Source: Neelides folsomi (lineage: Eukaryota > Arthropoda > Collembola > Neelipleona > Neelidae). Taken from it: a stretch of DNA of 64,000 bases. Below are positions 38,823-42,454 of this stretch, piece after piece. The notes below the pieces were generated by a model. That model was not told the origin of the DNA. It saw nothing but the letters and a program-made list of their open reading frames with translations, and ran no database searches. The DNA is taken from NCBI GenBank assembly GCA_034687125.1, contig JAQGBZ010000102.1, forward strand, positions 1 to 64,000. Direction: 5' to 3'. The position numbers were made by a program, and so were the translations under genes. Positions within the stretch are counted from its first letter, which is position 1. The number at the start of each line of letters is the position of its first letter.

Positions 38823-41800
38823 TTAATTTCAGCAGTCGGGTTCGATGCTTTGGCCCGATCCCTTCACCACGCGGCATTTCACGAGACTCTACAACAAACT
38901 TTTACCATTAACACAAAGTTTAATACATTTTTCTAAATAAAATTTTTATGGCTGAACCTTTTTGCACATTTTTTATACATGGAGATTTACGCCCATGTAC
39001 TTTTATAATAAAAAATTTTGCCATGTTAAACATTGTGATTTATTGATATTACCTCAGCACAAGTCGGATGGATTCCAATGGTTTTATCAAAATGCGCCTT
39101 TGTAGCACCAAGTAACATGGCCGTTGCAAAACCTTGTGTAACTTCTCCAGCATTCGGCCCAAGATAATGAAATCCAATTACTCGATTATCTTTACTCTTG
39201 ATTGTGACGAGTTTGATGTAAGGCATATTTGACTCTTTTTTTCGGTGAGGAGCAATGGCCCATTCCAATGGTTTAACACGACTGTGGAAAACTTCTACGT
39301 CGGCCGATCCGTAAAGCTCGAAAGCTGAAGTTTCTGATAATCCAATACATCCATATTCGAGTGGAGTGAAAACGGTGGTTGGACAAAAGTCGTAATTCAT
39401 TTCTTCTGTGGATTTCCCTGCGAGGCGACGAGCCAAAAGAACTCCTGCTTGGATGGCTGAAGGTGTTCTAATTATATTTTATAAATGATTAAATAAATAA
39501 ATTTAGTGAATAATTCAATAGATTTGAAGAAAAAGAATAATTGGTATTGCGACTTTCTGTGAGTGAGTGAATGGCATTGTGATTGTGATACTAATTGTTA
39601 GAGCAAACGAATTAAAGTTGTATTAACATGTAAAATAGTTAAATGAATAATTACAATTCAGGTCGGCCCAACGCGACATCTCCAATTGCAAACACCGAAG
39701 AAATACTTGATCTATCCCCGTTATCAACAACGACTTTTCCAGTTCTAAGAAAGATTGTAGACGATTGAAAATTATGATTAGCATTAAGATTTAAATGAGA
39801 TATCAGATTTCATTAAATAATTGACTTTTACTTTGGACAAAGCGTGACTCCAACTTGATCGAGTTTAAGATCCGTTGTGAGTGGATCTCTTCCAATGGCC
39901 ATTACAACAGTATCAAATATATCGGTTCTTTTTTGACCTCCAGGACCTTCTGAATATACAGAAATTTCTTGTCCGTTCAATTCCATTCGGGTTGGAACGA
40001 ATCCTCGAATGAATGAAATCCTCTCAATTGACTCCATTTGCTCTCCAATCATCTTTGAAACTTCTTCATCTGATGCATAAATTATACAATTATGAAAACT
40101 GAAAATCAAATGAATAGAGATTGAATAAATTTTACGTAGTCCTATTCAATTTACCAAATCCACGGAGCAAAATTGATCTACCAAAAATCAAGAAATACGT
40201 ATAAGATATAGCGAATCACAATTTAATTAAAAATATATTATGAATACAATTTATTGAAATTACCTGACCATTACTGTAACATTTGAACCAAGTCCTGCAA
40301 GAAATCCAGCCGTTTCAAGTCTGTAGAAACAACAATATTATTGTAAATTGCCTTTAATCGTGAATAATGCTTAATTATAAACAATATAAGTTTCCTACTT
40401 ACGCAATATAAGATGCACCAACACAAAGAACATTTTTAGGTTGAACTGGGAGAGAGAAAATGTCGTCGGATGTAATGGCGAATTCCCGAGCTCCCGGAAT
40501 GTCGGGATATCTTGGTCGACCTCCAATAGAAATGAGGATGTTCTTTGCTGTCACATTTCTTATGAATCCGCCTGATCCATCAGTTCCTCTCACAGTGAAT
40601 TCATCCACAAGCTCAGCTTTTTCATTAAAATATTTCACGCCGGAATCAGCCATGGTTTTTTCAGTTGATCTGTTCAATGACTTAATGTAGGATTGAACTG
40701 AAGTGACGAGAGTGGACCAATCATGAGAACCAGATGAACTTCTCCACCCGAAAGCTTGTGAGTCGGAGATGGAATGACCGAGAATTGCAGCTTGATGAAA
40801 AAGCTTCTTGGGAATACCTTAAATTCACAATCAAAGCAAATGAGATCTTTATTATTTTATTCCAATTGAATTAAACTTACATCCAACGTTCACGCAAGTT
40901 CCTCCAAGACCCCAAACAGTTCCCTAATAAATAATTTCGATTAAGAAAACATAATACACAAGCAATGTAATTACGTATTTCAATTAAAATAATATGTATT
41001 GTAATTGTAATTTGTTAAATGATATATAATTTTAAAGAGTGAATTGTACCTTTGGACTTGGCTTGACGTAATCAAAGAGAGCGACACGAGCTCCAAGATC
41101 TGATGCTTCTTTAGCACAAGCAATTCCTCCCGAACCACCTGAAGGAACCACGATACGGTGAGTATTTTACAACAATAATTAAATACTAATAGATAAGATG
41201 TTAAAACAATCAAACCTCCAACAATGATGAGATCATATTCAAAACCATGTTCAAGTGGTGCGAGTTTTCCAGCGCTATTAATTCTCCCGAGCAATTCATT
41301 TTTCTTATGAAGATTTTGAACAGAATCATTTCCACCAATATGTTCCCCACGAATGAAAATATTTGGAACCTTTAAAAATTTAATGAATTAATTCCTTGGT
41401 GATTATTTTTAGTTTTTAATTACAGTTCTTTGTCCAGTTTTTTGCAAAAGAGCTTCTTGAACAATTTGCCCTTCATTTCCAGGAAATTGGTCCAATTCTA
41501 CGACCTTTATTTAAAAATATAAAAATTTGATTATTCATCTTGATTCTTGATGAATAAGTAGTAGCATAAGTGTAAAATTTTGTGATGAAATCACCTTCAC
41601 ATCCACATTGTATTCCTCTTGGAGCAGAGCTTTTGCCTTAATAAGATTAATGGGTTATAATCAGATTATATTGTATCATGATCTTGTTTTAAAGTAACTT
41701 AAAAATGAAGTCTTACTTTTGTACAATAAGGACAAGTCGTTTTACTAAAAATGACAACTGCATGTGAAGAAACAAGTTGGTTGATTCCTTCCAGAGCAGA

Positions 41801-42454
41801 ACCAGGAGTAGAAAATCCATCAAGTTTCCCCTGAAGTCCTTTGGCTCGATGGAGAGCTTGAAGTGAGTCATTTCCGCCAATGTGTTCTCCGTGGATGAAG
41901 ATGTTCGGGACCTTGATTAATAAGAAACAATATAATTAAAAATCGTTTCTTTATAAAATATCAATATGGTATTAGGGCAAATATGAATTTTTGAATTAAA
42001 ATATAAAACTAACTGTTTTCTGTCCGGTCTTTTCAAACAATGCCTCTTGACAGATTTGTCCTTCGCCTTCAGAAAGTCGATCAAGTTCAATGCTCTGGAA
42101 TCAGAATAAATTTAGTCAAGTTGCATATGATTTATGATAAAAAATAAATTGAAACAAAAATTAATTATCTTACTTCATATTTTGCTCTATATTCCTCAGT
42201 GAGTAACGCTTTTGCCTATAAGAAATTTCATTAGTTAAACAAAATGATTTATTCCAAAATTTTTATCTTACTTTAGCACAGAAAGGACAAGTTGTTTTAC
42301 TGAAGAGAAGGACAGGATTGGTTGCAACAAGTCGGTTGATCTCTTCAAGAGCTTTGCTCTTCGAACTAAACGCTCCTATTGGAGCCATGGTTGAATAAAA
42401 CCGACTAAGACCGACTAAAAACTTTGACGAAGTTGAAAATAATCGTCCTATCAT
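38823..42454 (-). CDS. TGR: Thioredoxin-glutathione reductase with two tandem glutaredoxin domains, Sec-containing
   Basis: Sixteen exons; every phase agrees, giving 737 codons with Sec. Start ATG 42454-42452; residues 1-22 are Arg/Ser-rich ([20 protein letters not shown]), like a mitochondrial presequence, and Met23 could start a cytosolic form. Glutaredoxin 1 has CPFC (56-59) and [15 protein letters not shown]; glutaredoxin 2 has CPYC (162-165) and [15 protein letters not shown]. The reductase part has DLIIVGGGSGG (FAD), the redox pair in CVNVGC (299, 304), a second dinucleotide site, AIGDVA, and the catalytic HPTCAE. The last exon (38888-38823) ends ...SIEPDC-TGA-AAT-TAA, so Sec736 follows Cys735 and Asn737 ends the protein. 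TGRs reduce both thioredoxin and glutathione disulfides with NADPH. Known TGRs carry one glutaredoxin domain; two is odd, as is the C-terminal Asn in place of the usual Gly. Confidence 0.9.
38829..38831 (-). other. In-frame TGA read as selenocysteine
   Basis: TGC-TGA-AAT-TAA on the minus strand, exactly where thioredoxin reductases carry Cys-Sec. Preceding residues VVKGSGQSI align with the usual VTKRSG..I. A SECIS-like hairpin is downstream. Confidence 0.75.

Follow-up and report, generated by a model that had tools for sequence, protein, structure and literature searches.

In a thioredoxin glutathione reductase (TGR), one selenoenzyme couples the thioredoxin system with the glutathione system and reduces thioredoxin, oxidized glutathione, and mixed disulfides. 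The way in which electrons leave the selenocysteine (Sec) arm for the glutaredoxin (Grx) domain is still debated. In the flatworm enzymes (Schistosoma, Echinococcus, and Schmidtea), a dithiol Grx domain precedes a Sec-dependent thioredoxin reductase (TrxR) with a CX4C redox center, and a SECIS element lies in the 3′ UTR (PMC2873472, PMC13138743). Mammalian TXNRD3 (TGR) and the Grx-containing TR1 of fish are likewise Grx-TrxR selenoproteins with one Grx domain (PMC3316567), and the Grx domain of mouse TGR has been termed monothiol (PMC3530482). The filarial TrxRs of Brugia and Onchocerca also possess an N-terminal Grx-like domain and Sec, but this domain has neither the Grx motif nor Grx activity (PMC8914392). 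The C-terminal tail is GCUG in both flatworms and filariae (PMC8914392, PMC2873472). Insect TrxRs are high-Mr enzymes too, but they use a Cys-Cys pair instead of Cys-Sec; the portion of the source cited here mentions no Grx domain in them, describes insects as lacking glutathione reductase, and gives the tails SCCS, TCCS, GCCG, and GCUG for fly, mosquito, nematodes, and mammals (PMC11508645).

The Grx-TrxR proteins described in the cited parts of five sources have one Grx domain each (PMC8914392, PMC6155587, PMC13138743, PMC2873472, PMC3316567), as the sequence-only reading of the present DNA had held for known TGRs. Where the consulted TGR literature speaks of two Grx domains, two structures with one domain each are being compared, and a TGR with two Grx domains was not found in the open-licence literature among the matches listed. 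Arthropods may already have yielded TGR-like enzymes, since contig Ir-111289 of the tick Ixodes ricinus is annotated as a putative glutathione-thioredoxin reductase, which may or may not have the architecture described here (PMC5099782).

Here, we describe a gene of the springtail Neelides folsomi that, judging from its sequence, is a TGR by its domain fusion and core features but, unlike the described ones, carries a second Grx module and ends in DCUN. The flatworm TGRs have one Grx domain and GCUG at these places (PMC2873472, in the part consulted), and DCUN differs from all four tails listed above. The gene would extend the TGR architecture beyond the described flatworm and vertebrate cases. 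Two Grx modules on one reductase core would separate position from chemistry, allowing one to ask whether the Sec arm supplies a module according to how close it lies to the TrxR core. A single enzyme of this kind could also pass electrons to glutathione by two outlets.

Gene structure

The gene occupies positions 42454-38823 on the minus strand of the window, the whole stretch of 64,000 nucleotides that was analyzed (Table 1). Its 16 exons are phase-consistent and leave the frame open to the codons UGA, AAT, and TAA, so that the product has 735 residues followed by UGA, one residue, and the stop. All 15 introns begin with GT and end with AG, their lengths range from 54 to 187 nt, and introns 1-6 are in phase 0 throughout. 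The TGR genes of parasitic flatworms have 17 exons and that of a planarian has 12 (PMC2873472, in the part consulted). The same-strand upstream neighbor (42970-44500, minus strand) appears to encode the alpha subunit of a biotin-dependent carboxylase, MCCC1-like as judged by eye.

Table 1 Positions of the exons, domains, and 3′ elements of the TGR-like gene, counted from the first nucleotide of the window
Feature	Positions	Strand	Remarks
Exon 1	42272..42454	-	183 nt; putative mitochondrial leader (21-residue stretch); first half of Grx1 to CPFCAK
Exon 2	42174..42215	-	42 nt; Grx1; same length as exon 5
Exon 3	42014..42094	-	81 nt; Grx1; same length as exon 6
Exon 4	41717..41911	-	195 nt; end of Grx1 (15-residue stretch) and start of Grx2 up to CPYCTK
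Exon 5	41595..41636	-	42 nt; Grx2
Exon 6	41424..41504	-	81 nt; Grx2
Exon 7	41216..41369	-	154 nt; end of Grx2 (15-residue stretch), linker, start of FAD-binding fold
Exon 8	41050..41138	-	89 nt; TrxR
Exon 9	40881..40923	-	43 nt; TrxR; CVNVGC redox center, completed in exon 10
Exon 10	40403..40817	-	415 nt; TrxR
Exon 11	40264..40320	-	57 nt; TrxR
Exon 12	40155..40177	-	23 nt; TrxR
Exon 13	39832..40069	-	238 nt; TrxR
Exon 14	39655..39744	-	90 nt; TrxR
Exon 15	39053..39467	-	415 nt; TrxR dimerization domain; HPTCAE at end
Exon 16	38823..38888	-	66 nt; C-terminal arm ending in a 14-residue stretch, stop
Grx module 1	41816..42370	-	aa 29-134, spliced; CPFC; Pfam 60.4 bits (aa 1-134)
Grx module 2	41274..41815	-	aa 135-240, spliced; CPYC; Pfam 72.1 bits (aa 135-253)
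TrxR part	38823..41243	-	aa 251 to end, spliced; TIGR01438 592.8 bits
UGA, putative Sec codon	38829..38831	-	stop TAA at 38825-38823
SECIS-like element	38677..38741	-	AUGA at 38733, 10-bp helix, AA apical bulge, mini-helix, GA; SECIS_1 26.3 bits
AATAAA, candidate poly(A) signal	38621..38626	-	after the SECIS-like element

Coordinates, strand, phase, and motifs agree with the earlier proposal of one 16-exon gene in which two Grx modules (CPFC and CPYC) are followed by TrxR. At the level of genomic DNA, the gene is confirmed as real and well built, with both modules ahead of the reductase. When the draft genome (75.1 Mb in 840 contigs) was searched with the whole protein, all ten matches fell at this locus itself, on contig C102. 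An arginine kinase of this genome, pieced together by eye, gives its best scores with two two-domain kinases, followed by crustacean chains (457 bits) and then other arginine kinases, in keeping with an arthropod.

That the assembly or the gene prediction has fused two genes is hardly credible, though the draft state of the genome (840 contigs) speaks for it. A single exon (exon 4) spans both modules, only one locus is found, and the introns and synonymous sites of the modules have diverged. The interval upstream is about 500 nt, as the MCCC1-like gene stops near 42970. Misassembly collapsing two genes, which the sequence-only reading had named as a possible refutation, is thus unlikely; the two copies are too diverged for a recent duplicate.

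The two Grx modules and the reductase core

The CPFC, CPYC, and CVNVGC motifs start at residues 56, 162, and 299, respectively. Each Grx module, searched alone, scores well above the Pfam Glutaredoxin cut-off of 22.9 bits (E 2e-16 for Grx1 and 4.3e-20 for Grx2), and the eukaryotic Grx model TIGR02180 matches two stretches of the predicted protein. In the reductase part, Pyr_redox_2 covers residues 253-586 and Pyr_redox_dim residues 606-720. The score for TIGR01438, the NCBIfam model for TGR, exceeds its cut-off of 475.85 bits over residues 252-731; this model spans the TrxR part only, without Grx. The protein thus has the core of a high-Mr TrxR flavoprotein with CVNVGC and, in the gene model, an N-terminal Grx in the same chain, both of which are features of TGRs. 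It departs from the single Grx of the described TGRs by an addition and not by a loss.

Both modules keep the CPxC motif, the Lys residue preceding it, Gln, TVP, and GGND; in other words, the sequence features of dithiol Grxs (a CPYC-type motif, Lys before it, TVP, and GG.D) are found in each. The alignable residues of the glutathione (GSH) site in Grx1 are K53, Q91, TVP (102-104), and GGND (114-117), suggesting that Grx1 is probably active. It is quite improbable that Grx1 is structural or decaying and lacks redox activity, as the Grx-like domain in filarial TrxRs does. The filarial enzymes provide a precedent for such an inactive domain (PMC8914392, in the part consulted), the Pfam score of Grx1 is lower than that of Grx2 (60.4 versus 72.1 bits), and its branch is longer (0.68 versus 0) in a small tree that leaves forks open. 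However, Grx1 retains CPFC and the GSH-site residues, unlike the filarial domain, whose Grx motif is missing whereas here the motif is kept in both modules.

The position of exon 4 should be noted in relation to splicing. Mutually exclusive use of the modules had been named as another way in which the proposal could fail; since the last part of Grx1 and the first part of Grx2 are encoded together in exon 4, the modules are not exchangeable as exon blocks, and such exclusion is unlikely in its simple form. The Grx-Grx-TrxR architecture itself stands on the gene model and the domain scores, while simple exclusion is only disfavored and skipping that yields a hybrid module is conceivable. Removal of exons 2-4, 3-5, or 4-6 keeps the frame in each case, with no stops other than the UGA and the final one; removal of exons 5-7, the fourth of the four skips tried, breaks it. 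Some or all mRNAs might accordingly encode a TGR of the ordinary kind, whose only Grx is a hybrid of the two, the two-module form being one isoform. We give this a small but appreciable chance, as GT/AG sites are present at all exons and the motifs are kept in both modules, both of which argue against it.

Origin of the second module

Grx1 (residues 29-134) and Grx2 (residues 135-240) align without gaps, with 63 of 106 residues identical. By the NG86 method, pS is 0.72, dS 2.4, and dN 0.31 between them; dS is near saturation, and the dN and dS values are pairwise and not per module. The introns at matching positions form three pairs, and their members are no more alike than shuffled sequences (scores at least as high occur in 149, 122, and 120 of 200 shuffles). 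The exon sizes of 42 and 81 nt, on the other hand, repeat exactly between the modules (exons 2/5 and 3/6). Taken together with the common phase 0, the identity, the nearly saturated synonymous sites, the unlike introns, and the repeated exon sizes look like the traces of a three-exon unit that was duplicated in tandem within the gene long ago. A recent duplication created by the assembly is ruled out by the 63/106 identity, the pS of 0.72, and the paired introns at shuffle level.

We also considered independent capture of a second Grx domain. In a MAFFT alignment, Grx1 and Grx2 share 61 of 102 residues, whereas the free dithiol Grx encoded on contig C5 shares 29/98 with Grx1 and 36/98 with Grx2; the values for the Grx domain of Schistosoma japonicum TGR are 36/92 and 37/92, respectively. 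The modules are nearer to each other than to the C5 Grx or to the Grx domains of the S. japonicum and Schistosoma mansoni TGRs. This closeness and the shared exon sizes disfavor capture.

As to which module is the older in position, we infer that Grx2 holds the ancestral place and that Grx1 is the faster-changing copy. Grx2 has the higher Pfam score and the shorter branch (lengths as given above) in a seven-row Grx tree, in which the forks around both modules are open and a long-branch warning applies. In addition, the nine top solved sequences align from query residue 142-145 onward, so that their one Grx falls on Grx2; seven of them are labeled thioredoxin glutathione reductase and two thioredoxin-disulfide reductase (SjTGR entries in PMC13138743).

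C-terminal tail and the putative Sec codon

The protein ends in DCUN and not in the GCUG tail of TGRs. Its penultimate codon is the in-frame UGA (UGA, AAT, TAA), and a SECIS-like element with the core expected of a SECIS lies 87 nt downstream of it, outside the 42454-38823 gene span. The score of this element for Rfam SECIS_1 is below the gathering score of 35, with E values of 0.0095 over 801 bases and 0.76 over 64,000 bases; it is the one SECIS_1 match in the whole window. The inner 38 nt, folded between the core motifs, give −9.9 kcal/mol, a value reached by 15 of 1000 mononucleotide shuffles. When 81 nt were folded without constraints, the SECIS shape did not appear (z 0.51; 130 of 200 shuffles are at least as stable). 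A crude scan of both strands of the window gave 766 candidates and ten passing rows, two of which are this element at two lengths; another site (25179, plus strand) folds lower, at −11.0, and looser forms of the pattern are common (36 and 65 sites).

The genome encodes a tRNA-Sec (76.1 bits against a gathering score of 47; anticodon tca), and SepSecS gives five matches, all on one contig. Insertion of Sec at the UGA is thus likely, as far as the coding and 3′ features and the Sec machinery genes indicate. By hand count, four residues lie between the last aligned Ser and the Cys here, against five in S. japonicum TGR, which would make the arm with the Cys-Sec pair one residue shorter.

Elsewhere in the window, a SECIS_3 match at 36150-36183 (minus strand; 21.2 bits against a gathering score of 63) is likely a chance match.

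Start codons

The context of a start codon influences whether scanning ribosomes initiate there or pass on to a later one. The context of the first ATG (42454) is weak, and the leader that begins there, represented by a stretch of 21 residues, is devoid of acidic residues. The second in-frame ATG (42388) has the context ACCATGG and starts with MAPIG. An out-of-frame ATG at 42509, with a frame of 12 codons, lies upstream of both. The weak context of the first ATG, the leader, and the context of the second ATG suggest that mitochondrial and cytosolic products are made by leaky scanning. Mitochondrial and cytosolic TGRs from one gene are described for Echinococcus and supported for Schistosoma in the cited parts of the sources (PMC2873472, PMC13138743).

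Proposed electron routes

The reading that we favor, with somewhat more confidence than doubt, is a Sec-dependent TGR whose single Grx domain was duplicated in tandem within the gene, with Grx2 as the Sec-fed port to oxidized glutathione (GSSG), Grx1 working in parallel, and dual forms of the enzyme. Sec insertion, the ancestral module, the electron routes, and the dual targeting are what we infer in it. Electrons would pass from NADPH through FAD and CVNVGC to the Cys-Sec arm of the other subunit, and from this arm to thioredoxin and to Grx2. Situated beside the TrxR core in the ancestral position, Grx2 would reduce GSSG. This role is assigned by analogy with S. japonicum TGR, in which GSSG reduction is lost without Sec, the Grx Cys, or the Grx domain (PMC13138743, in the part consulted). 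Grx1, one module further out, would act mainly as a parallel second dithiol Grx, with GSH that the enzyme itself produces as its reductant, and might at times be reduced directly by the Cys-Sec arm. The two start codons would probably provide mitochondrial and cytosolic forms. Several points weigh against this reading: the low score and poor unconstrained fold of the SECIS-like element, the lower-folding site elsewhere in the window, the DCUN tail with its shorter arm, the nearly saturated dS, the open forks and long branch of the tree, and the out-of-frame ATG upstream of both starts.

The usual reductant of dithiol Grxs is GSH. GSH is also the simplest reductant of Grx1, though a direct or serial route may exist. 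In a serial relay, the Sec arm would reduce Grx2, which in turn would reduce Grx1 by disulfide exchange, and Grx1 would act on substrates far from the core. Each chain carries two intact dithiol motifs in directly adjoining modules, as such a relay would need, but no sequence feature demands it and the usual role of GSH counts against it; we regard the relay as unlikely. A fuller version, in which the Sec arm, Grx2, and Grx1 work in series, the DCUN tail is suited to this, and the dual-targeted enzyme is the sole thioredoxin and glutathione reductase, is very unlikely.

Other redox genes and features

Four other Grx-like genes of the genome were recognized by eye, namely, the free dithiol Grx on C5, a Grx5-like gene on C60, a PICOT-like gene on C28, and a GRXCR-like gene on C2; the PF00462 search of the genome missed both modules of the TGR-like gene as well as the free Grx on C5. 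The TGR-like gene is the only match in the genome for PF02852. A glutathione reductase was not found with TIGR01421, for which three of the four matches at E up to 1 are this gene and one is AIF-like by eye. Its absence is unproven, since dihydrolipoamide dehydrogenase (DLD), which is expected to be present, was not recovered by the same kind of search: of six TIGR01350 matches, three are in this gene, and those on C298, C271, and C32 are not DLD-like by eye.

A scan of prokaryote genomes with approximately residues 33-329 (297 residues) gave 76 loci, and in the five whose surrounding frames were read (L049, L050, L097, L107, and L110) no Grx-Grx-TrxR arrangement was seen. One frame at L050 (4959-6170; a Deltaproteobacteria metagenome-assembled genome) combines a CPYC Grx with a low-Mr TrxR as judged by eye, a fusion of another kind.

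The free dithiol Grx gene (C5, near 166312) shares with the TGR modules an intron placed at T|VP, whereas its first intron is three residues further on.

Three further observations concern unrelated sequences. At 8857-9069 of the window, MIR7996 and mir-5014 matches occur on both strands below their gathering scores, which is probably an inverted repeat and not a miRNA. In another genome region (L032; G000 C605:23680-26970), the frames next to a guanidino-kinase match of low score (33 bits) contain an ankyrin-repeat-like stretch, perhaps as part of a fused gene. An open frame of 414 residues with long threonine runs lies at 35475-36719 on the plus strand of the window.
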